A DNA stretch of 64,000 bases from a virus. Shown piece by piece: positions 17,531-37,409 of the stretch. Position 1 is the first letter of the stretch. Each line of letters starts with the position of its first letter. The notes under the pieces are model-generated. The model saw only the letters and a program-made list of their open reading frames with translations. It searched no databases and was not told the origin of the DNA. The stretch is taken from positions 96,862 through 160,861 of IMG/VR virus record IMGVR_UViG_3300025687_000001; one strand, written 5' to 3'. The position numbers and the translations under genes were made by a program.

Positions 17531-17890
17531 ATGACAAGCCTAGTAAGGCAGATTGACGCTGCCCTACAGCTTCTTGGTTGGAGTCCCCTTACGGACTTTG
17601 GAGAGATTAGTCTCTGCAGTTTACGTGAAGAGTGGGTGGCCGATATGACGGCTAATCTCTCCTGGCCGAGGGACGCCCAGATTAGTAGATGGTGCAGCAG
17701 CGCTACCCGTGGCGTAGGGAAAGAGGCGGGTACCACAATCTACGTCCTAGCCAACCTAAAAGACCCGCACATGGTGTTCCTGGCCTCCCTCACACACCTA
17801 GGCCCAAGCAAGTTCAGCAGCGAACACGCAGTGCTTCACGCAAACTACCCAAACTGGGAATGGCTGCTCAACCACACTGCAGCCCAGTAG
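17531..17890 (+). CDS. Array-family paralogue 1
   Basis: 119 residues. The N-terminal helix VRQIDAALQLLGW carries the family's L-x-G-W end; the middle is beta-rich; the last helix ends NWEWLLNHTAAQ. First gene after the promoter box. Function unknown. Confidence 0.65.
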   Translation: MTSLVRQIDAALQLLGWSPLTDFGEISLCSLREEWVADMTANLSWPRDAQISRWCSSATRGVGKEAGTTIYVLANLKDPHMVFLASLTHLGPSKFSSEHAVLHANYPNWEWLLNHTAAQ

Positions 17891-17906
17891 AAAACCCCGA
17901 CGTGTC

Positions 17907-18245
17907 GTGCCTGCTACAACTAATCCATTGGGATACTTAAGTAAGTTAGCGGGTGTCATGGACCTCGCGGGCTTTACCTACGTTGATCGGTGGCTAACGC
18001 CTCAACTGATCGGGGGGTTGCCCACCGACATGGCCCACAACCCTAGCAGGGTAGACTATGTACTCGGAGAGTCCGTGCATGTAGTGGCGTGTGTCGTAGA
18101 AGTAGGGTTCCAGGTCAAGCAGGCCAAGCTGGCCATCTACGTCTACAGCCCTGAAAAGCCTGAAGTACCCGGCTACCACGCTGTGCTCGACAACGCTGTT
18201 GCCGCTTTCGGCGTTGTTGCTGCTTTCATTGAGGACATGAGATGA
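17907..18245 (+). CDS. Array-family paralogue 2
   Basis: 112 residues from GTG 17907. LSKLAGVMDLAGFTY is the family N-terminal helix; VKQAKLAIYVY is a core strand; the C-terminal helix is AFGVVAAFIEDMR. Its stop overlaps the next ATG (ATGA). Confidence 0.65.
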   Translation: MPATTNPLGYLSKLAGVMDLAGFTYVDRWLTPQLIGGLPTDMAHNPSRVDYVLGESVHVVACVVEVGFQVKQAKLAIYVYSPEKPEVPGYHAVLDNAVAAFGVVAAFIEDMR

Positions 18246-18661
18246 GCCTGATTGACCTTAGCAACTGGGACCCCGCCTTCATCAAGGCTAGCGCTGCTGC
18301 GCTGCTTACGCTGCCCGTTGACCCAGCAGAGGTGCAGGTCCAGCTGCGTGCTAGTGAGTTGAATACGTATTCCTCGGAAGGGGTGATGACATGGCCCTAC
18401 TCAAAGGATGTCCTCTCTAGCTATGGCGACACTCCGTGGGTCAGTGCAATCTGGTTAGACCTGGCCAACCTGCCAGGTCTTCACTTTCGGTCAGCCAGTT
18501 ACGACCTCTGGTACATCAATACTCGCTGGATCGTGGGGTGCAACGTCCACCCAGACCATCCAGGGCTGCCGGAGATATCCTGGTGCAAAGAAGTCAGCAC
18601 TCCCTACGAAGTCTACGAGGGCGGCGTGAGAGCACTCAATGAGCTCTGGTCCTGTGGATAG
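18242..18661 (+). CDS. Array-family-associated protein 3
   Basis: 139 residues, ATGA coupled. It shares the alternating strand core (LHFRSASYDLWYINTRWIVGCNV) and a C-terminal helix (EVYEGGVRALNELW), but the L-x-G-F helix end is not obvious. Probably a diverged member. Confidence 0.55.
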   Translation: MSLIDLSNWDPAFIKASAAALLTLPVDPAEVQVQLRASELNTYSSEGVMTWPYSKDVLSSYGDTPWVSAIWLDLANLPGLHFRSASYDLWYINTRWIVGCNVHPDHPGLPEISWCKEVSTPYEVYEGGVRALNELWSCG

Positions 18662-18711
18662 CCCGCCCTTGCACGGACGGCTGTTCGACCGTACATGGGC
18701 GCCACGGCCTG

Positions 18712-18957
18712 GTGCTGTACGTGTTTGTGCGGCTGAGCAGTGGTAGCGCCTACGTGGTCAGCAACGTGTCGTGGGCGCAAATGTTCAAGCGCCCTTCAAG
18801 ACAGGGAAATATGCTTCACGTAGGACGCCCTAGCTGGGAGCTGAAGCGCGAGCGTACGCGCGTAAGCCTTGAGCACCCCGCAGAAGTGCAGCAACACATC
18901 CTCAAGGAACTCGACCGGCCTCACAGGCATGCAAAACGAATTAGCGCTCAACGCTAA
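18712..18957 (+). CDS. Array-family paralogue 4, N-terminally short
   Basis: 81 residues from GTG 18712. It starts in the strand region (LYVFVRLSSGSAYVV) and ends with the family helix type HPAEVQQHILKELDRP, so the N-terminal helix is missing. It may be a truncated copy. Overlaps the next gene. Confidence 0.45.
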   Translation: MLYVFVRLSSGSAYVVSNVSWAQMFKRPSRQGNMLHVGRPSWELKRERTRVSLEHPAEVQQHILKELDRPHRHAKRISAQR

Positions 18958-19348
18958 GCTGCTCCTGAGAGCAGCAGAGCTGTTAGGGTGGGAAGCGCCG
19001 GTGCAGGTAGCCACAAGCTCCCTGGACAAGCACATCGGGGCAGGGATCTACTACACTATTGGGCGGTTCTCAGGGCGAGGCATCACCATAAGCGTAGCTA
19101 CGAGCACCGACAACGTCTGGAAACCCCTGCTAACTTACGGACCCTGCGAGCGGCGCGAGCCTACGCACTGGGAAGACCGACAATACAAGCATCCCAAGTA
19201 CGTCTTCATGCCTTCGTATAGGCGAGAACAATGTAACAGCATACAAACACTGTTCGCAGCGACAGACTTTCTCGCAGAGCAAGCAGCGTGGTTCAGGGAC
19301 TGTTCCCGCAAGGGAAGGCTGTATGTACGAAAGGAGTACTCCTCGTGA
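18929..19348 (+). CDS. Array-family paralogue 5
   Basis: 139 residues from ATG 18929. The N-terminal helix AKLLLRAAELLGW is clear; the last helix is FAATDFLAEQAAWFRDC with a basic tail. GTG of the next gene overlaps its stop. Confidence 0.65.
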   Translation: MQNELALNAKLLLRAAELLGWEAPVQVATSSLDKHIGAGIYYTIGRFSGRGITISVATSTDNVWKPLLTYGPCERREPTHWEDRQYKHPKYVFMPSYRREQCNSIQTLFAATDFLAEQAAWFRDCSRKGRLYVRKEYSS

Positions 19349-19632
19349 GTGACCTGAGGACACTGCTTACCTCGCTTGCGCTGCTTGGGTTCCAAGCAAA
19401 CCGCGCGGGCGGCATGATCAGTGGTAGGTTCGAATTCAGCGAGGCCAATACATTGGTGCTAGTCTACGTGCCCGACGACCGAGGCCGCCTGTACTTGTCG
19501 CTGACCATAACGCCTTCCGCCCTAGACTGGGTGGCCTCGACAACTACCCAATTTCCGGTGACCTGGGTGACCCCCCAAGACTTCCCTGCAGTGGCAGCAT
19601 GGCTTCTCAGCGGATTGCCTCGAGATGAGTAA
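19345..19632 (+). CDS. Array-family paralogue 6 (compact)
   Basis: 95 residues from GTG 19345. A minimal member: LRTLLTSLALLGFQA, two strong strands (TLVLVYVPDDRGRLYLSLTI) and TPQDFPAVAAWLLSG. Useful as a template for the fold: helix, antiparallel strands, helix. Confidence 0.7.
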   Translation: MSDLRTLLTSLALLGFQANRAGGMISGRFEFSEANTLVLVYVPDDRGRLYLSLTITPSALDWVASTTTQFPVTWVTPQDFPAVAAWLLSGLPRDE

Positions 19633-19652
19633 AGCAACGCTCAACGCTACCA

Positions 19653-20000
19653 ATGACCAAGACTGAAGCGCGAGTAGCGCTAGAGGCGCATGGGTACGTG
19701 GCCCGCTACCCCTCCGCTGCTTTCCCTAATCACGCTAACGGGGTACTGGTAGCTAAGCGCGGAGCGCCTACTGTGCTATCGCTGTCCTATAACCCGGACG
19801 TACTGGACCTGGTACTCGAGGTAGGTTCTGCAGATGTGTGGAAACAATCGGGTGGGCTCTTTGTTCAGTGGCATCTTCCGGGTCTTCGACCAATAGGTAC
19901 CCCCTACCACTACCACCACGACGGTTACCTGCCGTCTGAGTACTTCCTGGAGTTCTTGCTGCTGATGAAGAAAGCCTTTCATGACATCACCGGCAGCTGA
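19653..20000 (+). CDS. Array-family paralogue 7
   Basis: 115 residues. Starts MTKTEARVALEAHGY, the commonest family N-terminus (MT-x-T-E). Strand TVLSLSYNPDVLDLVLEV and terminal helix YFLEFLLLMKKAF follow. Overlaps the next gene by 20 nt. Confidence 0.65.
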   Translation: MTKTEARVALEAHGYVARYPSAAFPNHANGVLVAKRGAPTVLSLSYNPDVLDLVLEVGSADVWKQSGGLFVQWHLPGLRPIGTPYHYHHDGYLPSEYFLEFLLLMKKAFHDITGS

Positions 20001-20382
20001 GCTCCTTTTTAGCCCGCAAGACCAGGCGGCGTTTGTGGCACAAGCGAGTATGAACCTGACTACCGCGGCACAGGTCTTTGATCTTTGCGGCTACGATGTC
20101 GAAGCCGTCTACCCAACTAGGCCGTCGCTGTTAGCCACCACCCGCGGCGCCTTCTCCACCGGCGGCGCCTTCTCTGGGCAAACTGCGGACACAATAGAGT
20201 GTGAGCTTAGCATCGACTCGTGTGGTTTCCTATTGACAGTCCTCTACGGGAAGGCTTGGTATCCCACTCTTAGAGATCCCTTGCGCACTTGGGTAGACAG
20301 CGAACCCCACATGCAAGAGCTAGAAGTACACACAGCGCAAGAGCTGCTTGCGCTGTGTGCGTGGCTGAAGACAGCGCTGTGA
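19981..20382 (+). CDS. Array-family paralogue 8
   Basis: 133 residues. A 25-residue N-terminal extension precedes LTTAAQVFDLCGYDV. TAQELLALCAWLKTAL is a textbook family C-terminus. A short internal repeat (GGAFS twice, near 52-62) is visible. GTG coupling downstream. Confidence 0.65.
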   Translation: MTSPAAELLFSPQDQAAFVAQASMNLTTAAQVFDLCGYDVEAVYPTRPSLLATTRGAFSTGGAFSGQTADTIECELSIDSCGFLLTVLYGKAWYPTLRDPLRTWVDSEPHMQELEVHTAQELLALCAWLKTAL

Positions 20383-20759
20383 GCCACAACAGATACCCTA
20401 CAAATGAAGAGGCCTGGGAGATGCTAAAGCTCATGGGCTTCCACCAGTCTTACATCCCTAGCCATGTACGCGAATCTCTCTCTGCTGTGTACTGCTATCC
20501 AAAAGTACACATGCGACACGCGGTCCTTGAGATACGGTGGTTCGAAGGCGCAGGGAACCTTTTCGCCCATTTGAGCGGTGGCTGGGTCAGCAACACACTT
20601 ACGTCACCGTGGGAGATAATGTTTGTTCGGTGGGACCCGTGGGAGCCAGGCCTTCCACACACTCTCGCTGGAGTAGCGCTAACGCTGCCCAAGCTGCAAG
20701 CTCGGCTCGCCGAGCTCATGCAGCAATTCAAGGAAGCCAATGCTTCGCTGTACGCCTGA
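20379..20759 (+). CDS. Array-family paralogue 9
   Basis: 126 residues from GTG 20379. NEEAWEMLKLMGFHQ is the N-terminal helix; HAVLEIRWF a core strand; LPKLQARLAELMQQFKEA the final helix. Overlaps the next gene by 20 nt. Confidence 0.65.
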   Translation: MSHNRYPTNEEAWEMLKLMGFHQSYIPSHVRESLSAVYCYPKVHMRHAVLEIRWFEGAGNLFAHLSGGWVSNTLTSPWEIMFVRWDPWEPGLPHTLAGVALTLPKLQARLAELMQQFKEANASLYA

Positions 20760-21102
20760 CCGAGCTTGTCTTGTCTTTGAGCTGCTAGGGTTCGCCAACC
20801 TGGCGTACTACACCCGGGACCCCCAGCGCCGAGCCGCCACGGGATTTCACAGCGCGGGAGGCCACCTCTACGCTCTCGTAGTGGCCTGGGACGCGGAGGT
20901 GGAAGAGTTTTTCTCCGAAGCAGGCCTCGGCATGATCCTCGACACTTCGGATCCCCCCACGCAGCCTCCGACAGTGGTTTGGTCCGCGATGTATCCTCCG
21001 GAGCCCTTGCTCCCAGCAATAGAAGTGAAGACAGTGCAAGAGCTGCTCAACGCTACTTGCGCTGCTTTCGCTGCTTTCCATGAAAAATACGGAGATGACT
21101 AG
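20740..21102 (+). CDS. Array-family paralogue 10
   Basis: 120 residues. DRACLVFELLGFANL, then LYALVVAWDAEVEEF, then TVQELLNATCAAFAAFHEKY. Overlaps the next start. Confidence 0.65.
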   Translation: MLRCTPDRACLVFELLGFANLAYYTRDPQRRAATGFHSAGGHLYALVVAWDAEVEEFFSEAGLGMILDTSDPPTQPPTVVWSAMYPPEPLLPAIEVKTVQELLNATCAAFAAFHEKYGDD

Positions 21103-21454
21103 AACAGAGTTTGAGATGCTGGCCACGATGTGTGGTTACAGAGTGATTACGAGAGACAAAAACGTGTCTAAGTCGTCTGTCGTGGCCTTCGCTACTTGCT
21201 ATGACACAGGACGAACTAAGCGCGGTGACACGCCCGCAGTGCTAGTCAAGTGGCTAGCGCCTCCGCCTACATACTTAGGGGTCACCGCAGGCTACGCCCG
21301 CCTAATTCCCCTCATCCACGAGGGTAGACTGACACACTGGACTCACTGGACGAGGCAGGTATACTCCTCTGGGATCCCCCCGCTGCCTGATGCCAAAGAG
21401 CTAGCAGCGCTGTTTGCGTGGTTGGCGGAAGGAGTCCTAAGTGTTGAGACCTAG
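21080..21454 (+). CDS. Array-family paralogue 11
   Basis: 124 residues. The family start MTRTEFEMLATMCGY begins at residue 6, so ATG 21095 may be the true start. DAKELAALFAWLAEGV closes the protein. The middle includes AVLVKWLAPPP. Confidence 0.65.
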   Translation: MKNTEMTRTEFEMLATMCGYRVITRDKNVSKSSVVAFATCYDTGRTKRGDTPAVLVKWLAPPPTYLGVTAGYARLIPLIHEGRLTHWTHWTRQVYSSGIPPLPDAKELAALFAWLAEGVLSVET

Positions 21455-21797
21455 TGTCCTCCGGGAGGTGCTTGCGCTAGCTGGGTACCACCCTGCTTCC
21501 ATCCGACACTGGTTTGTGCTGACTTCTCGAGGCACGTCTGTCCCCCACCTGGCAGAGTCTGACTGTTTTGTCTTGAGTGTAGATATCACCATGCAGGGAT
21601 CACTGCGCTTCGAGGCAGGCACTGCTATAGTTGCTTTCTCTGCTGAAGACGACCCAGGCTGCTGCGCAAAACTCTTTCGCTACGGCCGCGCTTCTCTGGT
21701 GGAAAGCCTAGACACACCAGACACACCCGAAGAGCTCCTCGAGCTCCTGGTAAACAAGGCGGAAGCCTTTTACAGGGAGTACAGTGCCAAGCATTGA
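21441..21797 (+). CDS. Array-family paralogue 12
   Basis: 118 residues from GTG 21441. LREVLALAGYHP, core strands DCFVLSVDITM and AIVAFSAED, and TPEELLELLVNKAEAFY. GTG overlap with the next gene. Confidence 0.65.
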   Translation: MLRPSVLREVLALAGYHPASIRHWFVLTSRGTSVPHLAESDCFVLSVDITMQGSLRFEAGTAIVAFSAEDDPGCCAKLFRYGRASLVESLDTPDTPEELLELLVNKAEAFYREYSAKH

Positions 21798-22134
21798 GCT
21801 GAGTGACAGTAGGAAAGAGTGGCTGCTACAGCTTGCCGGGTTTGAGATGGTGTACTTAGCTCCACGGCAATACATTGGTAGTCTTAGGCTGCCCGCAACC
21901 GGACAACTCTTGCTGGCACAACCACTGACAACAGAGCTACGCATGTGGCACGGCGTGGGAGGTACTCACCAGACGTCTTACGGTCGCAGGTCCTACAGCT
22001 GGCAAAGCATACCAGTCTTTATCCACTGGCAATATCAAGGCCCAACAGAGTGGGCAGTGTACGCACAGCTGGTAGAGGCAGCCAACGAGTTTATGGAGAC
22101 TGGTGTCATCGAGATGTGTTGTGACCAGGACTGA
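21784..22134 (+). CDS. Array-family paralogue 13
   Basis: 116 residues. RKEWLLQLAGFEMVY is the N-terminal helix. The middle is Trp/Tyr-rich (YSWQSIPVFIHWQYQG). The C-terminal helix is WAVYAQLVEAANEFM. Confidence 0.65.
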   Translation: MPSIELSDSRKEWLLQLAGFEMVYLAPRQYIGSLRLPATGQLLLAQPLTTELRMWHGVGGTHQTSYGRRSYSWQSIPVFIHWQYQGPTEWAVYAQLVEAANEFMETGVIEMCCDQD

Positions 22135-22381
22135 GATGCGAGCGCCGCTAGCGCTGCTTGGCTTTCGCGTTTTGAGCAAGGAAGGCCCCTTGGAGTGGGA
22201 GGTAGCGGCGAAACAGCTGCCTGGTAGGCCAAAGCTTATCTACGTAGATATGGCAAAGGCCGGACCTCCGCATAAGCTCAATGTGTACATAGGTGACGGG
22301 GTAATCCTCGGAGTAGAGACAGACGCATACCTGAGGGGAATTAGGTGGGGCTCCCCTCCTAAGATAAACCGCAGCGACTGA
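22121..22381 (+). CDS. Array-family paralogue 14, C-terminally truncated
   Basis: 86 residues from GTG 22121. MTRTEMRAPLALLGFRV is typical, followed by KLIYVDMAKAG and a strand, but the protein stops before the final helix. About 58 nt without a clear frame follow, consistent with deletion of the 3' end. Confidence 0.55.
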   Translation: MTRTEMRAPLALLGFRVLSKEGPLEWEVAAKQLPGRPKLIYVDMAKAGPPHKLNVYIGDGVILGVETDAYLRGIRWGSPPKINRSD

Positions 22382-22439
22382 AGTGTCAGCACTCCGATAC
22401 AGTTGGCCATTGTGTTAGCCAACCAAGTAAGGCTTGCTC

Positions 22440-22775
22440 ATGACTAGGACTGAGATTGGTATTGTCTACCTTGCCTTAGGCATAGAGACTACCACACCCA
22501 AGCCCACACACTACTATCCCTGGTTCCTCGGGGTTAGAGAAGTGGGTCCCTGCGTTTTGTGGGTAGAGACCAGCAACTCTGACGCAAGTGGCGTGAGAAG
22601 CCACATCAATGCTTACTGGGGCCCAGGAGTGTTAGAAGGCTCCGTGGGTCGCAGACGACCTGACCGCGGATGGGACGTTGTACACCGCAGACACTTCAAC
22701 TGTGACACCCCGCAAGAACTCTACGATCTCCTGGTACAAGTAATAGGTGAGATCGCAAAGCATGACTCGAACTGA
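22440..22775 (+). CDS. Array-family paralogue 15
   Basis: 111 residues from ATG 22440. MTRTEIGIVYLALGIE, strand CVLWVETSNSD, and TPQELYDLLVQVIGEI. Its end overlaps a 27-residue remnant. Confidence 0.65.
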   Translation: MTRTEIGIVYLALGIETTTPKPTHYYPWFLGVREVGPCVLWVETSNSDASGVRSHINAYWGPGVLEGSVGRRRPDRGWDVVHRRHFNCDTPQELYDLLVQVIGEIAKHDSN

Positions 22776-22845
22776 GCAATGTAGCCACTACCAGCTGCTC
22801 CTGGAAATCACAGACCGCTTCGTTAGATATGCCTCTCGTGACTAA
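22762..22845 (+). pseudogene. Internally deleted array-family remnant
   Basis: A 27-codon frame that begins like the family (MTRTEQ) and then reads YQLLLEITDRFVRYA, which resembles the terminal helix. The middle seems deleted. It overlaps both neighbours. Confidence 0.4.
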
Positions 22846-23224
22846 GCAAGAGCTAGCAATGACATTGTCGCTGACAGGGTTTACCCGGACACACCCTGCT
22901 GACGCTGTTTGGGTTGGCGGCGCTAAAGGTGTAGGAGACAACCTGCTGTGGGTTACCATCACTGATGTCATAGGCGAGTGGTACACCCGAGCTGAGTGGG
23001 GGACTGGCTCCTTAGCCAATCGCTCGACTTTGACTCACTACTCCCATAGGGACGGCTACACGGGCACGGAATACTACCCTAGGTGGGCGTACCGCCGAGA
23101 CGGGGGCTTCTTCCCAAGGCGCAAGCAGGTCAAAGCAACGTCAGCAACGCCAGCAGCGTTCCTCGCTGAGCTCGCTGAACTCACTGCTCGCGCTGCTGCC
23201 TACGACCCCACAAAGACAGCATGA
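22829..23224 (+). CDS. Array-family paralogue 16
   Basis: 131 residues; GTG 22838 (MTKQELAMTLSLTGF) is the likelier family start. DNLLWVTITD is the core strand. There is a basic Tyr-rich insert (YYPRWAYRRDGG), then TPAAFLAELAELTARAAAY. Confidence 0.6.
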   Translation: MPLVTKQELAMTLSLTGFTRTHPADAVWVGGAKGVGDNLLWVTITDVIGEWYTRAEWGTGSLANRSTLTHYSHRDGYTGTEYYPRWAYRRDGGFFPRRKQVKATSATPAAFLAELAELTARAAAYDPTKTA

Positions 23225-23449
23225 CACGCGCAGAAGCAGAGCTGGCGCTGACTTGCGCTGGCTACACGCTGATGTTGTGGCCTGGGGTGTTCTTAAGGAA
23301 AATCGAGGGATCCTTACATAGCGTGGGAAGGCGAACGCAGGTACCCGCTTTACCGGCTAAAGAAAAGACACGACGTGACCAGCTTACGCGGCTTCGCTGA
23401 TTTCCTTGTTGCGCTGAGAGAGCAGTACTTGCAGGAGGTTGGGTGCTGA
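23221..23449 (+). pseudogene. Frameshifted array-family copy
   Basis: ATG 23221 opens MTRAEAELALTCAGYTL, then after about residue 28 the frame turns to unlike sequence and stops at 23400. The +1 frame resumes family-like sequence (YPLYRLKKRHDVTSLRG, then FADFLVALREQY) and stops at 23449. One indel near 23300 would explain this. Confidence 0.6.
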
Positions 23450-23826
23450 GCCCAGCTCAAGCAGCGCTAGCAATGCAAGGGGCGGGGTTGATGCTGACTA
23501 GCGAACGAGCTGCCCCGATCCTCCGCGTCGGGAGTCTGCTTCGAATACCATGGGCCCCCGCGGACACTCGGGAATACGCCCCCGGCCTCGGGGCCACCTA
23601 CACCGAGAATAGTCACGGTGAGGGCAGGCTGTACGTGCGCACTGGACCAGCGCGATGGACGCCTCGAGTTTCCGTGGGAGGTCAGCCCTACGCCACAATT
23701 AGCTGGAAGCTAGATGGCGCGTTGATGCAACAAATACCCTGGGACTCCAACGACCCTGTTGAGCTGACGCGCTTCTTGCGCTGGTTCGTTGATTGGTTTG
23801 TCGAGACACAGGCTAAAGAAAAGTGA
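23443..23826 (+). CDS. Array-family paralogue 17
   Basis: 127 residues from GTG 23443. PAQAALAMQGAGLML is the N-terminal helix; DPVELTRFLRWFVDWFVE is the last helix, very close to that of the next gene, suggesting a recent pair. GTG overlap. Confidence 0.65.
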   Translation: MLSPAQAALAMQGAGLMLTSERAAPILRVGSLLRIPWAPADTREYAPGLGATYTENSHGEGRLYVRTGPARWTPRVSVGGQPYATISWKLDGALMQQIPWDSNDPVELTRFLRWFVDWFVETQAKEK

Positions 23827-24227
23827 TCAGCGCAAGCAGCGTTAGCCTGATTTTAGAGGTACTAGGGTTCAGGCTAGCTTACCCGTACCAGCCAAAGTTA
23901 GTTGTCGGTGGGGGGTTGCAAGTGCCCTTTACCGGTAAGCTAGCCACTAGTCTAGTCGTGGAGCACTACCGCTTAGCCAACGTCTTGTACCTTTACTGCG
24001 GTAACGCCTTGGTTTGGGATCCTGAACCAGGCATCACTGTCGTGGAGGTCAAGGACGACATAGACCAACTGGGCCTGTACACCAACGCACCTGAGGATCC
24101 CACAGAGCTCTATAACTTCTTGTTATGGATCGTCGACTGGTTCGTTTCAACCAGACATGCCGCGACGAGCAGCCTCAGCGAAGGCAGAGAAGGCAGCGTC
24201 AGCCCGGTGTCGGCCCAGACCACTTAA
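23823..24227 (+). CDS. Array-family paralogue 18
   Basis: 134 residues. VSLILEVLGFRLAYP, strands SLVVEHYRLANVLYLY, and DPTELYNFLLWIVDWFV as in the preceding gene. A 20-residue Ser-rich tail. Last plus-strand gene of the first block. Confidence 0.65.
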   Translation: MISASSVSLILEVLGFRLAYPYQPKLVVGGGLQVPFTGKLATSLVVEHYRLANVLYLYCGNALVWDPEPGITVVEVKDDIDQLGLYTNAPEDPTELYNFLLWIVDWFVSTRHAATSSLSEGREGSVSPVSAQTT

Positions 24228-24330: not shown

Positions 24331-25140
24331 CTAGCGCTCAGCTCCCCCCGGTAGGGCGTTTCTTTTAGCTCCGACATGGTCTAAGTCTAGGGCTGCGGTG
24401 GGGGGAAAGGCAAGCTTACGCTGCTGCTCTGCTTGCTTGAGAAAAGCGAGGGGGTCGGGGTGCTGCTGGAGCTGCCTAAGCAGCTTAGCGTCTAAAGAAT
24501 CATCAACAGCGAAGGCAGCGTCGAAGGCGTGTCCATACGAGACGTCATCGTCGTATAGCAGCTCCTGCAGCTTATCGTAGGTGAACTGCTCCCAATTTGG
24601 GTGCTGCTTGCGCCAGAGCACGCGGAGCTTGGTGATTGGATCGCCGTCTCGGTCGTCTAGGACATCAAAGTACGAGTCGTCCCAGCAGGCGCGGAATTCT
24701 CTGTCGGTTGAGCTAGTAAAGGCCAGCAGCGCCTGCCAGGCAGCAAGGCCAGCTTCTTTTAGGTCGGGGAGCGAGGAGGGCGTTGCTTGCGCTGCTGCTC
24801 TGAGGGCTTCTAAGGCGTCGAGCAGCTGACCATAGGCAGGGGTAGGGACTTGGTCTCTTCGTGGGCCTACGCTGACGAGGGCCGCATCTACGCGCTTTAA
24901 CACCTCCAAGCCTATGGAGACGTTTATGCTTTGCAACCTGCCCACCTTACGACCTGCTTTGCTGCTTCGTTGTTTGACCGCGCCCTGGAGCCAAGTAGCG
25001 AGGATCGCATGGGCGCGTTGAGGATTTACGTAGGGCATATACCGATGATTCGTGTCTGGGGTTTCGAGGGTAGAAAAAGCATATCGCAGAGGAAGTGAGT
25101 AAGAAACAGCGCAAGCAGCGCCAGCAACACTTTCATCCAC
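24331..25140 (-). CDS. Hypothetical protein, only minus-strand gene in the array region
   Basis: 269 residues, largely helical, with an Ala/Gln-rich middle and acidic C-terminal half (QELLYDDDVSYGHAFDAAFAVDDS). No enzyme motif. It starts at the edge of the AT-rich gap and is divergent from the 26.3 kb operon, so a replication- or regulation-related role is plausible from position alone. Confidence 0.65.
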   Translation of the reverse strand: MDESVAGAACAVSYSLPLRYAFSTLETPDTNHRYMPYVNPQRAHAILATWLQGAVKQRSSKAGRKVGRLQSINVSIGLEVLKRVDAALVSVGPRRDQVPTPAYGQLLDALEALRAAAQATPSSLPDLKEAGLAAWQALLAFTSSTDREFRACWDDSYFDVLDDRDGDPITKLRVLWRKQHPNWEQFTYDKLQELLYDDDVSYGHAFDAAFAVDDSLDAKLLRQLQQHPDPLAFLKQAEQQRKLAFPPTAALDLDHVGAKRNALPGGAER

Positions 25141-25366
25141 ATCAATGATATCCTCTATTACTTCTAACAGAGAACCCCTGTTTTCAATGATTACGCGGAC
25201 TTAGCCAGTAAGCTTCGAAATTTTCGAACGCGCTCTAAGTACTGGAATCTATTGGGAAATCAGACACAAGTCTCACGTTATAACTAACAATCCTTTTTTC
25301 CCTTTAATTTCAAGGGTTTCGACTTTTGGTTTTCGATTGTCAATAAGTTTCAAGTACTTAGGCGTT

Positions 25367-26263: not shown

Positions 26264-26665
26264 ATGAGCAACCCCCCAACTCCACCCTGGGTCCGAACTA
26301 CCGCGCGACTCGTTCGCACGAAGGAATTCAAGACCCTCCTGGAGTCGTTGATGCCCCCACACAAGGCACGCATCCTCGCTGAGGCATTGACGAACTACTA
26401 CTCTGTAGACAGAAACCCAGAAGCCCGAGAGAACTACTGGGATGAGTTCACTGATCCGGGCCTAGAGCTGTGCTTTGACAAACACGGCCCCCGCTTCGAA
26501 GGCAGCGCAGGCAGCGCAAGCAGCGCAAGCAGCGCAAACAAGGCCCTCCAAGCAATCGTGGCCACCGTAGCCCCCTCTCACCCCTCTACCCGCCCCCCAC
26601 ACTCCGCTCAAACCCCCGCGCCCACGCCCACCCAACTCTCTGCTAGCCCTAATGAGCGCAAGTAA
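26264..26665 (+). CDS. Hypothetical protein with Ser/Ala and Pro tail
   Basis: 133 residues. A helical N-terminal half (EFKTLLESLMPPHKARILAEALTNYY) is followed by a low-complexity stretch, GSAGSASSASSA, produced by the GCAGCGCAAGCAGC word read in an unusual frame, then a Pro/Thr tail. Not an obvious family member. Overlaps the next gene by 14 nt. Confidence 0.6.
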   Translation: MSNPPTPPWVRTTARLVRTKEFKTLLESLMPPHKARILAEALTNYYSVDRNPEARENYWDEFTDPGLELCFDKHGPRFEGSAGSASSASSANKALQAIVATVAPSHPSTRPPHSAQTPAPTPTQLSASPNERK

Positions 26666-27544: not shown

Positions 27545-27678
27545 CTGGGTTTGTGTACTCTTACGAAGAGGCCACGTTACCTGCTTACTGGGAGACCTTC
27601 CTTGATCACTACCCAGACCGCGCTTTCTCCACAGCGGACTGCGCGTTTTATGTCTGGGAATACACCATAAAGCGATAG
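27496..27678 (+). CDS. Array-family copy, N-terminal half of a split gene
   Basis: 60 residues from GTG 27496 (start uncertain). TVAQLAGFVYSYEE and YWETFLDHYPDR match the front of its neighbours, then a TAG stops it exactly where NPY should come. Confidence 0.5.
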   Translation: MQEEVPGAIQNTVAQLAGFVYSYEEATLPAYWETFLDHYPDRAFSTADCAFYVWEYTIKR

Positions 27679-28318: not shown

Positions 28319-28746
28319 GATACAAACTCCTGGTCGACTTCGTAAACATGGCAGAGAAGGTCCTGCTACTCACTGCCTTGCCAGTGCGGCTGGGCGACTC
28401 TCCAGAGTATTACAGGCATATCTTGTTGCCTACGTACGAGACATGGAAGCGGGATGTGTTCAACCGCTGTGCGCGCAACCCCGTCCCTAGCCCCAGCGGG
28501 CATCCCTGTGCTGATTACTACAACCACCTGGCTTTGGTGTACACAGAGCCGGAAGGCGAGCGCGCCTCGAACACTCAGACAGAATCCTGGGTCTTCTGTC
28601 TGAGTGTGGTTGACTTGACTCTGTGCACCTTCAGCAGCAGCATATCGGGCCCAGCATACATCCGTCCCATGCCAGACCCACGCACCCCCAATGCTCCGAC
28701 AGAGCTACTGGAATACATCCTAATGTGTCATAAGGCACTAACATGA
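28270..28746 (+). CDS. Array-family paralogue 22 (YW...LD subfamily)
   Basis: 158 residues from ATG 28270 (28264 also possible). KLLVDFVNMAEKVLL, YYRHILLPTYETWKRDV, WVFCLSVVDLTLCTF and ELLEYILMCHKALT. Cys-rich. Contains a CATAAG box just before its end. Confidence 0.6.
   Translation: MYLSKEKPYGDLPNPVRYKLLVDFVNMAEKVLLLTALPVRLGDSPEYYRHILLPTYETWKRDVFNRCARNPVPSPSGHPCADYYNHLALVYTEPEGERASNTQTESWVFCLSVVDLTLCTFSSSISGPAYIRPMPDPRTPNAPTELLEYILMCHKALT
28729..28734 (+). promoter_or_regulatory. CATAAG promoter-like box
   Basis: GTCATAAG inside the end of the upstream gene, ATAAG at 28730, 13 nt before ATG 28743. Confidence 0.4.
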
Positions 28747-29618: not shown

Positions 29619-30511
29619 GCTACATCCTCAAGACGCGCATGCCGGAGCACCTGGACACGTTCAAGAGGCACTCTCTGCCACTGGAGTGGTCACGGCTCAC
29701 GCAGAAGCGCTTGCTGTACCACCCGGACACGCGTGCGATCTGGAACCAGCTGAGGTACTACGGGCTGCCAATGTACGCAGCGCAAGCAGCGCATGCAGCG
29801 AAAGCAGCGCTCATGCCGCTCTCAAGCCACAAACACACACCTGCCATCTACGAGGGCCTGAACTTTGACCTGATGGACCTCTCCCGCACGGTGTGGGGTA
29901 CGCTTGAGCTTCCGGCGTGCAGCTTTGTTGGAGCAGACCTCTCCCACTCCAACTTCTCTCGAGCCAATCTCACCAACACCGACTTCACGTACGCCAAAGC
30001 CACCAACGCGAAGTTCTCTCGTACGTTGGACCTGAGGCACATTTCGTACCTGCGTAGCCGTACTCCGGCAATCAATAAGCGCCCCACCATGTACCACGAC
30101 CGAGCGCGAGACGGCTCGGCAACACTATGGCCTTTGGAGGACTTTCAGCGCGCCCCCGACGCCCCGCCCCCCAAGCCACTCCCACCATCGCCAAAAGCGC
30201 CAGCGTCGCGGTCGGTGTTGTGCTTGTGTACACTGCACCACTGGCATGCACGAGCCTTTCTGGCTCGACGAGCGTTGCGCACGTGGAAGTGGAAGTACCA
30301 ACACGAGTGGGTGATTCACTTCCCGACAGGCTTTACCCCCGAAACCCGTCAAGCCGTCCGCATTCTACGCGCGTACGGGTACATTCCACACCTGCTGGCC
30401 GTCGAGTTGCACAGCGCGGGCTGGGAAGCTGGAGTGTTTTCGAGCTTTCTGCCGATGCCGGTTAGCGGTACTGAGTGGGAGACAGTGCGGGTGGTAGAGC
30501 GGCGGTTGTGA
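29606..30511 (+). CDS. Pentapeptide-repeat protein
   Basis: 301 residues. An N-terminal helical part contains AAQAAHAAKAAL. Residues 95-135 form pentapeptide repeats (CSFVGADLSHSNFSRANLTN, then DFTYAKATNAKF). A Pro-rich linker and a basic Trp-rich C-terminus follow (TWKWKYQHEW). Pentapeptide proteins form a right-handed beta helix; some mimic DNA and inhibit gyrase. That role here is speculative. Overlaps both neighbours. Confidence 0.7.
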   Translation: MDSLSYILKTRMPEHLDTFKRHSLPLEWSRLTQKRLLYHPDTRAIWNQLRYYGLPMYAAQAAHAAKAALMPLSSHKHTPAIYEGLNFDLMDLSRTVWGTLELPACSFVGADLSHSNFSRANLTNTDFTYAKATNAKFSRTLDLRHISYLRSRTPAINKRPTMYHDRARDGSATLWPLEDFQRAPDAPPPKPLPPSPKAPASRSVLCLCTLHHWHARAFLARRALRTWKWKYQHEWVIHFPTGFTPETRQAVRILRAYGYIPHLLAVELHSAGWEAGVFSSFLPMPVSGTEWETVRVVERRL

Positions 30512-30934
30512 GTACCAAACCGGGCCTATGGGCAGGCGGCATTCACGCAGCGCAAGTCAAGTTTGACGCCTGCTGCGAGGTGCTGTGGATGTTGGGGTGG
30601 CAAGACATTCACGGTCCTCAGATTATTCTTCACACAGGGTACGATCGAATGAAGCGCGTGTTTCGGCTCTCTACAAACCCCGCGATTTTGCTCCCCCACC
30701 GAGCTCGAGTGTTTTTTTGGGCACGGCGCCGCAGACTACAGCCGAGGGGCCTATGTCCGCGTGGAGGTGGTAGTGACCACACCGCCAGAACCGGGCCAAC
30801 ACCCCTACCTGCTCTACGACGGTGACGGGTGTCCCCGACCTCCTAGCTTTGTTGTCGTACAATGGGACAACCTACAAGCCCTAGGAGAAGCACTCTATGA
30901 ATACACTGCTGCAGCGATTAGCGGACGCATTTGA
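30508..30934 (+). pseudogene. Array-family copy with frameshift at a T7 run
   Basis: GTG 30508 opens a member (FDACCEVLWMLGWQDI, later ARVFF), but at T7 (30712-30718) the family-like sequence moves to the +1 frame, GHGAADYSRGAYVRVEVVV to LQALGEALYEYTAAA, stopping at 30934. Unshifted reading ends at 30825 in unlike sequence. This could be decay, a sequencing error, or homopolymer slippage acting as a switch. Confidence 0.6.
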
Positions 30935-31460
30935 GCTGATGGGGTGGGAGGAGACTCCTCCTCCGTCTCGTAGGTACAACCAAGACGCGCCTCTCGACAA
31001 TCCAGGGAGGTTTAAGTTTCCGGAGTCCCTGACAACCAAGAAGACCCCCAACACGCCGGTAGCGGTGCGAAGGTTTTCGCCGCCGCCAGAGTCCCCTGCC
31101 TACCCGCTAACAGCGCTAGCAACGCAAGTAGCGTCAGGCAAGATTCGCGTGTCCGTCCGAGCACTAAGGCTCTCCCCCGAAGTCTGGGAAGACTTTGTGT
31201 TTGACGAGCTGGACGACATGTCTCCGAAGCTGCACGAGGCTGTGCAGAAATTGGCTGCCCTGCTCCCCCCTAAAGAAGCCGCCACCGAGAACCACATCGT
31301 CTCTATGACGCTTGGTGGCGGCTGTACCGTGTCTAGCTTCACGGGATCGGGGTCCGTGACCGCACTTGCAACCCATATGACCTCGGAGGACTCCTACACG
31401 GTAACGATGAACGTCGAGTGCCCGAGGTGTGGATTGCAACATGTAGCTAGCCCCAAATAA
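30897..31460 (+). CDS. Array-family paralogue 23 with C-terminal zinc-type pair
   Basis: 187 residues. LLQRLADAFELMGWEE is a clear N-terminal helix. The tail TMNVECPRCGLQHVA adds a Cys pair, shared in style with the 34937 gene (KCPHCNETHLNE). Last gene before a 485-nt gap. Confidence 0.6.
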   Translation: MNTLLQRLADAFELMGWEETPPPSRRYNQDAPLDNPGRFKFPESLTTKKTPNTPVAVRRFSPPPESPAYPLTALATQVASGKIRVSVRALRLSPEVWEDFVFDELDDMSPKLHEAVQKLAALLPPKEAATENHIVSMTLGGGCTVSSFTGSGSVTALATHMTSEDSYTVTMNVECPRCGLQHVASPK

Positions 31461-31945: not shown

Positions 31946-32302
31946 ATGCGAGTTATGTACAGAGATCCTTCCAAAGCACTCAGCCACGCAGGCCTGGGAC
32001 GAGGCTGGCGCATTGTGGGGAACACCCCGCTTCAAATGCGCAAGTACGTCACCGACCACGCATACGTGGAAATGAGCGCACACGACAAAGTCAGTGTCTT
32101 CGAGTTGAGGACATCTCCCCCCACGTCTTCCAACGCAAGGCGGTTTACGACCAAACACGTCTGGGCGGAGACTCACAGGACCCTAAGCAATTTCTCCGAA
32201 CAGGAGCTAGCCGAGTTCCTGCCCCGTCTGGAGGCTAGAGCAAGAGACCTTGCCAGATCACCGACCGCCGCCCCACCAGATCCCGAAGCGCCTCGTTCTT
32301 AG
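31946..32302 (+). CDS. Array-family-associated protein
   Basis: 118 residues. DPSKALSHAGLGRGW is a weak N-terminal match; SEQELAEFLPRLEARARDL is a good C-terminal one. Pro-rich tail overlapping the next gene. Confidence 0.55.
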   Translation: MRVMYRDPSKALSHAGLGRGWRIVGNTPLQMRKYVTDHAYVEMSAHDKVSVFELRTSPPTSSNARRFTTKHVWAETHRTLSNFSEQELAEFLPRLEARARDLARSPTAAPPDPEAPRS

Positions 32303-32753
32303 ATTTACGGAGCTAACGAAGACGCTGACTGAGCTATCAGGGTGGAATTTCCCCCCGGCGCTGTCCTGGCCCAACGTGTCAATGAGCTACACCACGCTCT
32401 ACGACTCGCCCCTGCGATACGGTCAGCTCTTCCATCGACAGCCTGATGGCGACTTAACTGGAGGAGCGGATCTCTGGTACGTCCCAGAGGACGCCACCAC
32501 TCGGCTGGCAGTTTTTCGTTGCGACCTCACCCCTGGCGGGCAGCGCAGGTATTTCACAAAGCACCTCCGCCCAGCGCTAACAAACAGACTCTGTTACGTG
32601 CAAACCTGGCCTTTTCTAACGGAGGGCATGCTCGACCCGGACACCCCACCTACGCCCAGCATCGAGTACCTGGCGGAGTGCCACGCACATCTGGTAGAAG
32701 CGCGCCACGTAGCGTTGGAGTTGCTAGAGGGGTTGTGCAACCAGAAGAGCTAG
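32250..32753 (+). CDS. Array-family paralogue 24
   Basis: Up to 167 residues. No ATG or GTG fits; TTG 32250 is the only candidate start I see. FTELTKTLTELSGWNF, TRLAVFRCDLTPGGQRRYF and SIEYLAECHAHLVEARHVAL are family features. Confidence 0.55.
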   Translation: MPDHRPPPHQIPKRLVLRFTELTKTLTELSGWNFPPALSWPNVSMSYTTLYDSPLRYGQLFHRQPDGDLTGGADLWYVPEDATTRLAVFRCDLTPGGQRRYFTKHLRPALTNRLCYVQTWPFLTEGMLDPDTPPTPSIEYLAECHAHLVEARHVALELLEGLCNQKS

Positions 32754-33211
32754 TCGAGCATTTTCGACAAGCAATCCTTTTGGCGCCTAGCGCAGGCTGG
32801 CACTGTCCGCAGGCTCTGAGCGCCGCAAAGATCCGGTATGATGGGCCTACTTCGAGGCGGATTACGGGAGAGCGGCTGGCGGTGAAGCTGTTGTACCGAG
32901 CTGGTAGCCCAACAGGACGACTGTACCGTGCTGGTCTGCACCCGGCCTCCGCGCCAACCAAGATCCCCGGAGAAGCGTGCATCGCACTGCTAGTAGTAAA
33001 GCGCCCCCAGATGCGCAGGCTGACTATTTATAGCGCTCAGGAGTCCTACGGGATGCACCTGACCCTGAACAAGGCCCGTCGTCGAGAGCTCCGCGACCCA
33101 CCCGACTCAGCGCTAGCAGCGTATGAAATCCTACTGAGGCTAGACATGCTCGCTGAAGGCGCGTGGGCCCGGTACACTCCTTACACGGACCAGTTGGTGT
33201 GGCGCGGCTAG
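32735..33211 (+). CDS. Array-family paralogue 25 (RRLTLY subfamily)
   Basis: 158 residues from GTG 32735. LVEHFRQAILLAPSAGW, then VVKRPQMRRLTIYSAQ, and AYEILLRLDMLAEGAW. The 'K-R-x-x-x-RRLT-x-Y' strand is shared with the next three genes. Confidence 0.6.
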   Translation: MQPEELVEHFRQAILLAPSAGWHCPQALSAAKIRYDGPTSRRITGERLAVKLLYRAGSPTGRLYRAGLHPASAPTKIPGEACIALLVVKRPQMRRLTIYSAQESYGMHLTLNKARRRELRDPPDSALAAYEILLRLDMLAEGAWARYTPYTDQLVWRG

Positions 33212-33693
33212 ACACAGAGCGCAAGCAGCTCGCTCCGCTCAACAAAACAACGCAGGACTTGTTCAAGCAGGCATTGGTGTCTGGGTACTTGCCGAGCTGG
33301 TGTGCCTGGGACCACTTACCTTCGCGGCTTTCTTACCTTCGCGTATCCCCCCAGAAGTCTGGCGCTTTTATCGCTGCCCGCCTAGGGTGGGTTCCGACGC
33401 CGCCTTCCCGATTCCTCGGCAGTGGCATACTAAAGGTGGAGACCTTGCGTCCCCTGGTGGTTGTGGCTAGCCGAGCTAAGTCTAGGCGGCTGACGCTGTA
33501 CACCTTGAGTTTTGACCCCCTCACGCTCATACCCACCGCACTAAAGCAGCGAGCAGCGTATCAGCGTCTGGCAACGCGCCCAACAACAGCGTACGCAGCG
33601 CACGCAACGCTAGTAGAGTTGGAGAGTATAGTTCAGGAGATGTGGCCCGGCCTCGAGCCTTACCAAGCGGCTGATGACAGCTATGACATCTGA
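33199..33693 (+). CDS. Array-family paralogue 26 (RRLTLY subfamily)
   Basis: 164 residues from GTG 33199. VVVASRAKSRRLTLYTLSF is the subfamily core; HATLVELESIVQEMW the final helix. The helix TTQDLFKQALVSGYLPSW replaces the usual N-terminus. Confidence 0.6.
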   Translation: MARLDTERKQLAPLNKTTQDLFKQALVSGYLPSWCAWDHLPSRLSYLRVSPQKSGAFIAARLGWVPTPPSRFLGSGILKVETLRPLVVVASRAKSRRLTLYTLSFDPLTLIPTALKQRAAYQRLATRPTTAYAAHATLVELESIVQEMWPGLEPYQAADDSYDI

Positions 33694-34105
33694 CGACAAG
33701 CTCAGCGCAGAACCTAAACCCCGAAAGCGCGTAGAAACCGGGCCGCCAGCAGCGAACACCTATCTGCTCATGCAGCGGGTGATAGTTACCGCGGCATTCC
33801 CGCATTGGCGAGTTCCTGGCAGCGGATGGAGCTACGCGCTAGCGGGTACTCCCGTGGCTAAGCGCATGCGGCCCAACTCCCCTTCTCTTACAACACCTGA
33901 CACTCTACCGTGGGTGCCCGGCTTAATCGTGTGCCACCGGAGTAAACAGCGGACGCTTACAACGTACGCTCTACACTTTGTGACCCCCGGGGAGTGGGGG
34001 GCTGTGCCACAGTCTACGCTACGAATCCTAGCTCCTACTACGCCAGCGGAAGCGCTAGCAGCGCTAGCAGCGCTAGAGGAGTTTGCCCAAAAGCTATGGA
34101 CTTGA
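33674..34105 (+). CDS. Array-family paralogue 27 (RRLTLY subfamily)
   Basis: 143 residues (ATG 33683 is an alternative). Basic Pro-rich N-terminus, LIVCHRSKQRTLTTYALHF core, and TPAEALAALAALEEFAQKLW, where the AALAAL codons are the GCGCTAGCA repeat word. Confidence 0.6.
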   Translation: MTAMTSDDKLSAEPKPRKRVETGPPAANTYLLMQRVIVTAAFPHWRVPGSGWSYALAGTPVAKRMRPNSPSLTTPDTLPWVPGLIVCHRSKQRTLTTYALHFVTPGEWGAVPQSTLRILAPTTPAEALAALAALEEFAQKLWT

Positions 34106-34455
34106 AGTCCGCAGAGGAAACCGCCCTGCGAGTGCAGCTAGTAGCCGAGCTACAAGGCTTGCAGTGTTACGATCTGCGCGAGGCGAACCTCAGACTTCTC
34201 ACCCACAACGAAGGCGTGTTGTACCTGGTGCTGCTAGCTAAACGCACCCGGGAACCTATGACTCGCTTACAATTAGAGTTGTACAGCGCAATGCCAATAG
34301 CAGAGCTAGCGTTGCGCGGGGACGGCAAGATTTGCCTGCTAGCAGGGCACGGCGCGCACCCCGACACGATAGCTACCTGTAGAACGCCAACAACGCCAGC
34401 AGCGCTAGCAGCGCTAATAGCGCAGTGGCGTGTACGCGCGTGGGAGTACATATGA
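34096..34455 (+). CDS. Array-family paralogue 28 (RRLTLY subfamily)
   Basis: 119 residues from ATG 34096. ALRVQLVAELQGLQCY, LLAKRTREPMTRLQLELYSA core, and TPAALAALIAQWRVRAWEY. Overlaps neighbours by 10 and 4 nt. Confidence 0.65.
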   Translation: MDLKSAEETALRVQLVAELQGLQCYDLREANLRLLTHNEGVLYLVLLAKRTREPMTRLQLELYSAMPIAELALRGDGKICLLAGHGAHPDTIATCRTPTTPAALAALIAQWRVRAWEYI

Positions 34456-34936: not shown

Positions 34937-35371
34937 ATGCCCCGTCGTAAGACTTCTACCCCCTCTCCTACGTCCAGCAGCGCTACCACCTCCAAGCCGA
35001 AGTCGGCGGAGCCTGTCATGGAGCAGCTTGAGCTAGAGCTAGCGCTGTCGGAGCCGGCGGTCCCCACTCAGCTCGAGCAGCTCGAGGCGGACATCATGCC
35101 CGTGATAGCTGCAGGTCCCGAGTACAAGAACTTCGTGGTCTTCGGTACCAAGTCCGGAGACCGCGCGGAGTCGTACTACTACTACCGCGCGCAAGACCAG
35201 CGAGAGCTGGAGAGCGTACTTCTTTCCACGCCGCTGTCCGATGGCGGCTTCGTCAACTTCACCTACAACGAGGTGGACGTTTTCCCGGAGGATGTTTTCG
35301 TTAAGTGTCCGCACTGCAACGAGACTCACCTGAACGAGTCGATGGTAACAACGATCTCCCCCCAGAGCTAA
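34937..35371 (+). CDS. Hypothetical protein with Ser-rich N-terminus and zinc-type pair
   Basis: 144 residues. Basic Ser/Thr/Pro-rich N-terminus, acidic Leu/Glu stretch, SYYYYRAQDQRELESVL, and KCPHCNETHLNES near the end. AAGGA precedes the ATG. Codon style looks like the well-expressed 16870 gene. Confidence 0.65.
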   Translation: MPRRKTSTPSPTSSSATTSKPKSAEPVMEQLELELALSEPAVPTQLEQLEADIMPVIAAGPEYKNFVVFGTKSGDRAESYYYYRAQDQRELESVLLSTPLSDGGFVNFTYNEVDVFPEDVFVKCPHCNETHLNESMVTTISPQS

Positions 35372-35742
35372 AGCCCTCGGCGCTCTACAAGCACGTAGAG
35401 ATTGCCAGCCTGGGCTTTCAGCTGATGGGGTGGGAGCTTAGGTACCCTCATCCCATACCTTCGCTACGAGACAGCGTTAGGTACCCAGAGCATCAGCTGG
35501 CTCGGGTCCCTACACGACGGCCAAAAGCCTGGCACCCCAACCGGATGGACAGAGTAGTGCTGAGGTTGTCGGGATCGGTGTATATTCCCGCCTGCATCGT
35601 GATACCAGGCTACTACGGGCGCACTTCTTGGATCCAAGAGTTCGGGCCGCAGTTGCCCAACCCGACACCAGAAGCCTCCGTACCAACTCCAGCAGAATTG
35701 GTGTTGAGCGTTGTCAGACGACTGGACAACCTCGGTACTTGA
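35305..35742 (+). CDS. Array-family paralogue 29
   Basis: 145 residues from GTG 35305; the true start may be further in, since 67 nt overlap the upstream gene. VEIASLGFQLMGWELRYP, DRVVLRLSGSVYIPACIVI and TPAELVLSVVRRLDNL. Confidence 0.6.
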   Translation: MSALQRDSPERVDGNNDLPPELKPSALYKHVEIASLGFQLMGWELRYPHPIPSLRDSVRYPEHQLARVPTRRPKAWHPNRMDRVVLRLSGSVYIPACIVIPGYYGRTSWIQEFGPQLPNPTPEASVPTPAELVLSVVRRLDNLGT

Positions 35743-36262
35743 GGCGGCGAAGCGGCGGTGGCGTCAAAGGATGCTGAGACGTAAGCAGCCCCCGCCTTCG
35801 CCGCCTTCAGAGCAGCCCCCGCCGCCCACCGATTTCACTGTAGGCGCTACGCTATCGCCCAAATACCCGAAGGTGCATAGCTCCTCCAACCCCGCAGTGC
35901 GCGTTTCCCCCGAGGACATTTACAAAGCCCTGTGTTTACTGGGCTGGAGCTGTCAGCTACTAGAGTCAAAGCTTACCAATGTCGGGACGCCAGGTCAGAA
36001 GGTAGTCACTGGGCTGATCGGGGAAGGCAACCGGAACAACACGTGGGCGTGGGTCTCCATGCGGCTGTGGGACCAGGACACAAACCTGTACCTGTGTGAG
36101 TACACGCCGGACAACTATGGCAGGGACCCTGCGGCCTCCGACTACAAGTCCGGACCAACTCAAATCCTCTTCGCGGACATGGACGCGGTGCTGAACTGGG
36201 TAGCTGCGCGCAGGCACTATCACTTAGCGTGCCTGTACGGGGATAGGGGTGAACATCCATAG
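35711..36262 (+). CDS. Array-family paralogue 30
   Basis: 183 residues from TTG 35711, or 163 from ATG 35771. A Pro-rich N-terminal extension, EDIYKALCLLGWSCQLL, WVSMRLWDQDTNLYLCEY, and MDAVLNWVAARRHY. Confidence 0.6.
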   Translation: MSDDWTTSVLEAAKRRWRQRMLRRKQPPPSPPSEQPPPPTDFTVGATLSPKYPKVHSSSNPAVRVSPEDIYKALCLLGWSCQLLESKLTNVGTPGQKVVTGLIGEGNRNNTWAWVSMRLWDQDTNLYLCEYTPDNYGRDPAASDYKSGPTQILFADMDAVLNWVAARRHYHLACLYGDRGEHP

Positions 36263-36554
36263 TCTAGTGCAGGTTGCGCAGGCCTTAGGGTGGGGAGTTA
36301 TCTACCCGGCAGTCTATGGGACCCTGCCGGCTAACAAGTTGGCTCACGTATCTCGTGTAACGCTAGTGCTGCCCCTGGTAGTACCAGACGACGTTGATGA
36401 ACCGTACCTAGTTCTCGCTGCTTCGGGGCGCCTGGAAGCCTCACTGTACAAGAGGATTAGCTCCACCGACAGAGAGACTATACGACTTGTGCCTCGTACA
36501 ACCGCTGAGTTCGGGGAGTGGTTGCTGGCACACACGCGGGGCGCAATGCAATGA
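36249..36554 (+). CDS. Array-family paralogue 31
   Basis: 101 residues from GTG 36249. HSLVQVAQALGWGVIYP, strands VTLVLPLVVP and YLVLAASGRLEASLY, and TTAEFGEWLLAHTRG. A compact, clean member. Confidence 0.65.
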   Translation: MNIHSLVQVAQALGWGVIYPAVYGTLPANKLAHVSRVTLVLPLVVPDDVDEPYLVLAASGRLEASLYKRISSTDRETIRLVPRTTAEFGEWLLAHTRGAMQ

Positions 36555-36931
36555 GCCCACAGTTTGCTCAGTTCACAGAACTGTACCATACTCGACAGCG
36601 TCTGATTAGGGCGTTGACCACCGCGTTCCCTGTCATTGCGGTGAGCCCGCAAACAACGCAGGTAGACTTAACTATCTACAGCTGGACCATCCCGTTTGTG
36701 CGTATCAAAGGATTGCCTGAGGAGTTTTTGTACTGCAACATAGACGCGGTAAGCTTGCGGGTTACCTACACTAGTAATAGCCTACCTCGTAGCGCCCGGT
36801 ACCCCCAGGGCGTGCTGGAGCGTCGAGCATTCACGACCCTCCGGGACAAGTCCCCAATCAAGATGATAGACTGGGTCCTCCAGCAAAGGAACGCGTTGCA
36901 TGAGCACCTGGAAGCTGCACGACGGGATTAG
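36551..36931 (+). CDS. Array-family-associated protein
   Basis: 126 residues from ATG 36551. RQRLIRALTTAFPVIAV may be the N-terminal helix without L-x-G; MIDWVLQQRNALHEHLEA is a family-like end. ATGA coupling. Confidence 0.55.
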   Translation: MSPQFAQFTELYHTRQRLIRALTTAFPVIAVSPQTTQVDLTIYSWTIPFVRIKGLPEEFLYCNIDAVSLRVTYTSNSLPRSARYPQGVLERRAFTTLRDKSPIKMIDWVLQQRNALHEHLEAARRD

Positions 36932-37409
36932 GCACGTTCTTCATGTGCCTACTGGTCTCAGTGTAGGGCGCAACCTAACAACGCAAGCAGCGCTAGCACT
37001 ACTTGCATACCTACAAGAGCACCTACCTGACCCAGACCTAAACGACCCCGAATTGCGAGCACAGCTAGAAGCTGCCGTGTGCCACGCCAGGTCCTATCTA
37101 CCGGTAAAAGACCTGGAACACGTCGTAGTTCGGGTGTCGTATGAGTTTTCCGTTTACGCGGACAGTACGACGCAGGCTATACGGGCCACCAAGGCGTCTC
37201 TTTCTGCGCATCCGCAACTGGGCCCGGCTCGAGTACAGGCATATCAGGTATCCCACCCAACGCGCACTAAAGCGCTGGTGCCTATAAAGCTGCCTCCCAC
37301 CCCCACACAGGTAATCTCACCGGAGAAACTTCAGATTGTCACTCTGGACGAGGTGGCGTTTGTTCCGCGAGTTGCGGCGAACTCACCGACACCTTCTAGT
37401 AAGAACTAA
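36900..37409 (+). CDS. Hypothetical protein ending the array
   Basis: 169 residues. LTTQAALALLAYLQEHLPD (with the repeat word), then acidic helices, then KDLEHVVVRVSYEFSVYADSTTQA, an alpha/beta domain unlike the family. Overlaps the upstream gene by 32 nt. Confidence 0.55.
   Translation: MSTWKLHDGIRHVLHVPTGLSVGRNLTTQAALALLAYLQEHLPDPDLNDPELRAQLEAAVCHARSYLPVKDLEHVVVRVSYEFSVYADSTTQAIRATKASLSAHPQLGPARVQAYQVSHPTRTKALVPIKLPPTPTQVISPEKLQIVTLDEVAFVPRVAANSPTPSSKN

Follow-up and report, generated by a model that had tools for sequence, protein, structure and literature searches.

The final 64 kb of an IMG/VR virus record of 160,861 bases, here called the window, carries two plus-strand blocks of small genes, at 17,531-24,227 and about 26.6-36.9 kb, as a preliminary description of the sequence had it. 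Together with outlying copies, their array of about 25-33 small, diverged paralogues almost certainly constitutes one family (Table 1). Between the blocks lie minus-strand genes and then about 1 kb (25142-26263) with few open frames, which adjoins the switch of coding strand and is a possible regulatory or origin region. GC content is lower here (0.495 for 24-26 kb), and the most extreme GC skew of the window (-0.25) falls at 26001-28000, where the start of block b is C-rich on the coding strand.

The record derives from a tailed phage of roughly 160 kb, known from environmental DNA only, whose large terminase is 31-33% identical to the terminases of Salmonella phage Arash and Vibrio phage D181. 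Queries with the terminase retrieved 6 related contigs, and queries with the capsid protein, which was named by gene context and not from a profile match, retrieved 69 related viral contigs, the longest of 188 kb. Structural genes occupy the minus strand at 47.7-63.6 kb of the window as well as the left-hand part of the record; the array genes lie on the opposite strand to these late genes, within a plus-strand accessory region that extends from about 5 to 47.7 kb. In the minus-strand structural region at 53311-59951, the products of g102, g104, g107, g109 and g110 carry an N-terminal tag, as do those of minus-strand structural-region genes at L003, L005 and L007. The tag, which resembles FLKxAYxxGxxxALxxxG, is common to twelve different proteins, is often followed by glycine-rich hydrophobic stretches and has similar counterparts in the phage's relatives; by analogy with T4 capsid targeting sequences, it could direct proteins to the virion.

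Table 1. Coordinates of the array and of neighbouring features within the window.
Feature	Position	Strand	Basis
Block a (a01-a19), some 17 members in tandem	17531..24227	+	Motif and HMM leave-one-out, coding tests
a06, shortest full member (95 aa), modelled protein	19345..19632	+	AlphaFold2
a08, member close to a10	20050..20382	+	phmmer 4e-5 with a10; motif score above all controls and decoys
a10, member	20740..21102	+	Pairwise search, leave-one-out HMM and motif tests
a12, member	21441..21797	+	Leave-one-out HMM and motif tests
a14, truncated copy without helix 2	22103..22381	+	Translation; pairwise Z 4.1 with a15
a17, 59-residue remnant, helix 1 only	23221..23400	+	N motif 16.5 bits, C motif absent
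a18 and a19, closest block-a pair	23443..24227	+	phmmer 1.5e-6; alignment
Block-separating genes, non-members	24331..25142	-	Gene calls; larger one without Pfam match
Start of block b: b02, b03, b05, b06 and split copy b04; YW...NPY subfamily	26652..28746	+	b03/b05 4e-13
b04, split copy	27484-27678 and 27678-27872, two frames	+	
b09, copy with a frameshift between helix 1 and helix 2	30475..30934	+	Translations
b10, member	30897..31460	+	Above all controls with block-a motifs
b11 and b12, probable members	31946..32753	+	Leave-one-out motif and cross-block tests
b13-b16, RRLTLY subgroup, uncertain members	32882..34455	+	phmmer about 1e-4 among b13-b15
b20 and b22, clear members; b21 and b23, unproven	35305..36931	+	b20 and b22 outscore every control with block-a motifs
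c01 and c02, outlying copies	41776..42445	+	Leave-one-out HMM and motif tests, cross-block test
c04, outlying copy adjoining late minus-strand genes	47348..47728	+	Above all controls with block-a motifs

A total of 47 candidate open reading frames (ORFs) were identified by gene calling combined with stop-to-stop inspection. The array ORFs are genuine coding genes: the in-frame codon score is the best one for each of the 34 tested, and 16 of these 34 carry a Shine-Dalgarno-like site, compared with 19% of random positions. Their codon score per codon is 0.06, against 0.15 in other genes. Four copies (a14, a17, b04 and b09) look partial or broken, for which birth and death is the simpler reading and assembly error a possible one. 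The isoelectric points of the array proteins range from 4.3 to 10.0, a spread that makes one common role, as DNA mimics or nucleic-acid binders, less likely for the family as a whole.

Pairwise phmmer searches by themselves support few relationships (b03/b05, 4e-13; a18/a19, 1.5e-6; a08/a10, 4e-5; b13/b14/b15, about 1e-4), most pairs being non-significant, and the case for one family is carried by motif and profile tests. The sequence [LM]xG[FWY] occurs within the first 50 residues of 22 of the 47 array ORFs and of 5 of 115 other phage proteins (p = 6e-10), a count slightly biased by the upstream extension of some array starts. Leave-one-out HMMs ranked 12 of 26 core members higher than every one of the 172 other phage proteins; of 282 shuffled or reversed decoys, no more than 3 outscored these members. 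A leave-one-out test with two gapless motifs, one covering helix 1 with L-x-G-[FWY] and the other helix 2 with TPxELxxLLxW, gave 25 of the 47 ORFs a higher score than any of the size-matched control proteins, which come from the same phage; from the decoy rate, fewer than one such ORF would be expected. Moreover, motifs built from block a alone were applied to block b and the outlying copies (block c), which avoids circularity from close pairs. They separated the ORFs from control proteins (p = 7e-7) and ranked seven of them (b20, b03, b22, b11, b17, c04 and b10) above every control, while b13, b14, b21 and b23 failed. Pairwise scores are shifted as well, the mean shuffle-corrected Z being 0.59 in the array and 0.01 in controls. 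No match emerged when profiles of b03/b05 and of block a were compared directly with each other, and the union of blocks a and b therefore rests on the motif tests and not on a full-length profile match.

The earlier view that the blocks hold mainly one kind of protein is supported, but several ORFs in the range are not members. Judged by sequence, these include 28,743-29,618, which lies inside block b and has a weak AEP-like primase match (PF24387, E = 2.6e-4, under the curated cut-off), and the adjoining pentapeptide-repeat protein at 29,606-30,511. The leave-one-out motif and cross-block tests gave no family support for the ORFs at 26,264, 34,937 and 42,442, and little for that at 36,900. 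Extra copies had been placed outside the blocks; those at 41.8-42.4 and 47.3 kb are supported by the motif and cross-block tests, but the 42,442 ORF drops out, and its relatives are found in sister phages. Likewise, the proposed RRLTLY subfamily (b13-b16) coheres, but is tied weakly to the main family, which it resembles in the C-terminal helix only. The sole DNA repeat found in the array region is a 34-base stretch of 91% identity, with one copy at 26502-26535 in ORF 26264-26665 and the other at 29777-29810 in the pentapeptide gene.

Close neighbours, no more than two genes along from one another, show greater resemblance than expected (permutation p = 2e-4), which bears out the earlier suggestion that the family grew by local duplication. 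Within the array, blastn found no DNA similarity except for one short stretch, and recent duplication was rejected on this ground; because the DNA similarity has gone, the duplications are old or the divergence was fast.

At the protein level, members share an alpha-(beta)4-5-alpha layout in which L-x-G-[FWY] closes helix 1 and TPxELxxLLxW lies in helix 2, and both motifs and layout are kept despite very low identity. In anchor alignments, which were hand-checked and chosen with the anchors in mind and so are not independent evidence of homology, the order of elements is helix 1, a strand, an LVVxW-like strand, a strand with G at its centre, a W-containing strand leading into a proline-rich loop, and helix 2. 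AlphaFold2, supplied with the paralogues as alignment, gave five models of a06 with pLDDT of 61-64, the best of which (pLDDT 64) consists of a helix, five strands and a helix; the model of a19 (pLDDT 51) was left out of fold searches. The common alpha-beta-alpha layout put forward earlier is thereby supported at modest confidence. Foldseek searches of the PDB with the a06 model returned DR_1245 as the best match (E = 0.16, probability 0.90, TMq 0.53), followed by Pur-alpha, and BFVD yielded weak matches only (best E 0.04). The DR1245 protein is homologous to YbjN and has the type III chaperone fold, alpha-beta3-alpha-beta2-alpha (PMC3575483). The TY-chaperone layout runs helix, beta meander, helix, with the two helices on the same side of the sheet; the a06 model shows this order of elements, and the side on which its helices lie is not visible. 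YbjN (PF10722) has no match in the whole record, and TY-Chap3 (PF22552) has one weak match, below cut-off, outside the array and antisense to a called gene. Given these results, the modest model confidence and the non-significant E-value, we treat a YbjN/type III chaperone-like fold as a lead only, and infer the fold class of the family from the model.

Searches of Pfam, PHROGs, PADLOC and PDB sequences with members and profiles returned nothing credible, in keeping with the earlier remark that the proteins could not be assigned to a known family; PADLOC defence models gave zero matches. Furthermore, tblastn with a10 and b03 against named phages found nothing credible, and IMG/VR scans with a10, g81, g97 and the large tail-region protein g105 (which we guess to be a sheath protein) gave no matches. 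Profiles of a18/a19 against viral contigs and of b03/b05 against genomes found no relatives, so that with the profiles tried no array-gene orthologues appeared in IMG/VR or the genome collection, searches that may leave near-identical records out by design. Among related contigs, a profile search with alignment A1 came back empty; A1 is a poor alignment, and a two-motif scan was substituted, which loses about half of true single members but which a block should not escape. It found no array in the related loci, including eight relatives covered in full or nearly so, and none of the examined contigs from the terminase and capsid queries carries one. Among relatives with long records, G007 is the nearest (capsid 71%). 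It has homologues of g97, g76 and g1, plus a weak homologue of g71, in partly conserved order; the stretch that its g97 and g1 homologues enclose measures about 9 kb, compared with about 42 kb in the array phage, and no array-type protein was seen in it. These comparisons support the array being lineage-specific among the sampled relatives.

One scaffold, surfaces that vary as judged from isoelectric points, many copies, lineage specificity and copy loss together point to many different protein partners. It is the range of isoelectric points on one scaffold that argues for different partners, and the accessory-region setting in a phage that makes host defence components or toxins the most plausible ones. 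At a little under even confidence, we propose that the diverged family may be a stock of inhibitors, each copy binding a different host protein. Each copy would keep the scaffold and change the surface, each surface would bind a different host protein, most likely a component of antiviral defence or its toxin, and the stock would change by duplication, divergence and loss, following the logic of a homogeneous polyimmunity locus. The arms-race or recognition function first suggested for the array fits its extreme divergence, its spread of isoelectric points, its truncated and split copies, which suggest birth and death, and its accessory position opposite the late genes. Against it, the searches, in which PADLOC defence models served as the defence library, found no target, defence system or anti-defence homologue, and varied isoelectric points are compatible with relaxed constraint too.

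The closest organisational parallel is the homogeneous polyimmunity locus of bacteria. Polyimmunity loci are marked by tandem arrays of paralogues that are only distantly related, and in the homogeneous kind the array consists of one immunity family, its paralogues often distant (PMC3482391). The phage array is likewise tandem and is dominated by many distant paralogues of one small domain. Homogeneous loci also lack interposed toxin genes, and in the phage array no toxin was recognised among the inserted genes scanned with Pfam, several of which have no known family. Unlike the bacterial loci, the array lies in a phage, its domain matches neither SUKH nor the Imm families in Pfam, none of the 22 members scanned against Pfam matching an immunity family, and it has no known toxin partner. 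Clusters of small phage genes also occur in anti-defence islands and in segmental amplifications of anti-defence loci, and gene copy number is described as a counter-defence route in phages, but islands gather unrelated inhibitors and amplification yields identical copies, whereas the array holds one scaffold in many very different copies (PMC7648647, PMC13096335, PMC9391042). For a phage, so large a single-scaffold array is unusual, since gene families made by duplication are called absent from most dsDNA phages (PMC5694885). It is a tentative possibility that the phage carries a library of some thirty one-scaffold binders against different host defence components, a viral counterpart of polyimmunity built on a family undescribed before. 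If so, a phage can build an inhibitor repertoire by duplication and divergence and not only by gathering unrelated genes. Should the copies indeed block different defence proteins, the locus would offer a ready-made screen for further proteins of anti-defence function.

Other readings bear on the same evidence. The array proteins might belong to the TY (type III chaperone/YbjN) superfamily and act as chaperones that bind peptides, in which case each would escort or hold its own phage or host protein and not inhibit it. The superfamily, which comprises type III chaperones, YbjN and TY-Chap, shares a possible helix-flanked beta meander with the a06 model, and the match to DR_1245 speaks for it. 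We consider this unlikely, since that match is non-significant and comes from a model of modest pLDDT, the a06 model has no second central helix, and the 22 members match no TY-chaperone family in Pfam. Nor does any member adjoin an obvious partner gene, and the literature consulted gave no description of TY-chaperone arrays of this size.

That the array is decaying clutter, old duplicates drifting with little function, would account for the four truncated- or split-looking copies, the low codon scores and the extreme divergence, but is rather improbable where all tested frames are open with the best codon score in frame and the helix motifs and layout persist at very low identity. Diversified virion proteins, or injected internal proteins, have a precedent in the paralogous internal head proteins of T4, SPN3US and similar large phages, which are likewise a phage gene family made by duplication (PMC5694885). 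Those are virion proteins, many with propeptides, whereas the array genes lie outside the structural genes and on the opposite strand, encode proteins that lack the N-terminal tag, and are absent from relatives whose structural genes are conserved, which makes this reading quite improbable. A set of small proteins that are unrelated but have similar amphipathic helices at either end would explain the non-significant pairs, the negative b03/b05 profile comparison and the four cross-block failures, but this is very improbable in view of the cross-block p value, the seven ORFs above every control, the overall pairwise Z shift and the similarity of neighbours.

Other families of small proteins occur in this group. 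The G012 record (L143-L152) has its own 13-member family of proteins of about 70 residues, partly in tandem, at 130-183 kb, and G009 and G015 have smaller families of short proteins; expansion of small-protein families may thus be a habit of these phages. Elsewhere in the accessory region, a plus-strand two-component set at 7005-9466 comprises a PAS histidine kinase (HATPase 1.8e-17) and, around it, three receiver-domain proteins, two of which score under the Pfam cut-off; homologues of the set were not found in the relatives compared. The product of 40730-41413 is predicted to be a membrane protein; it contains an HEMQH motif, looks metalloprotease-like by eye, and has no Pfam match and a weak homologue in relative G008.
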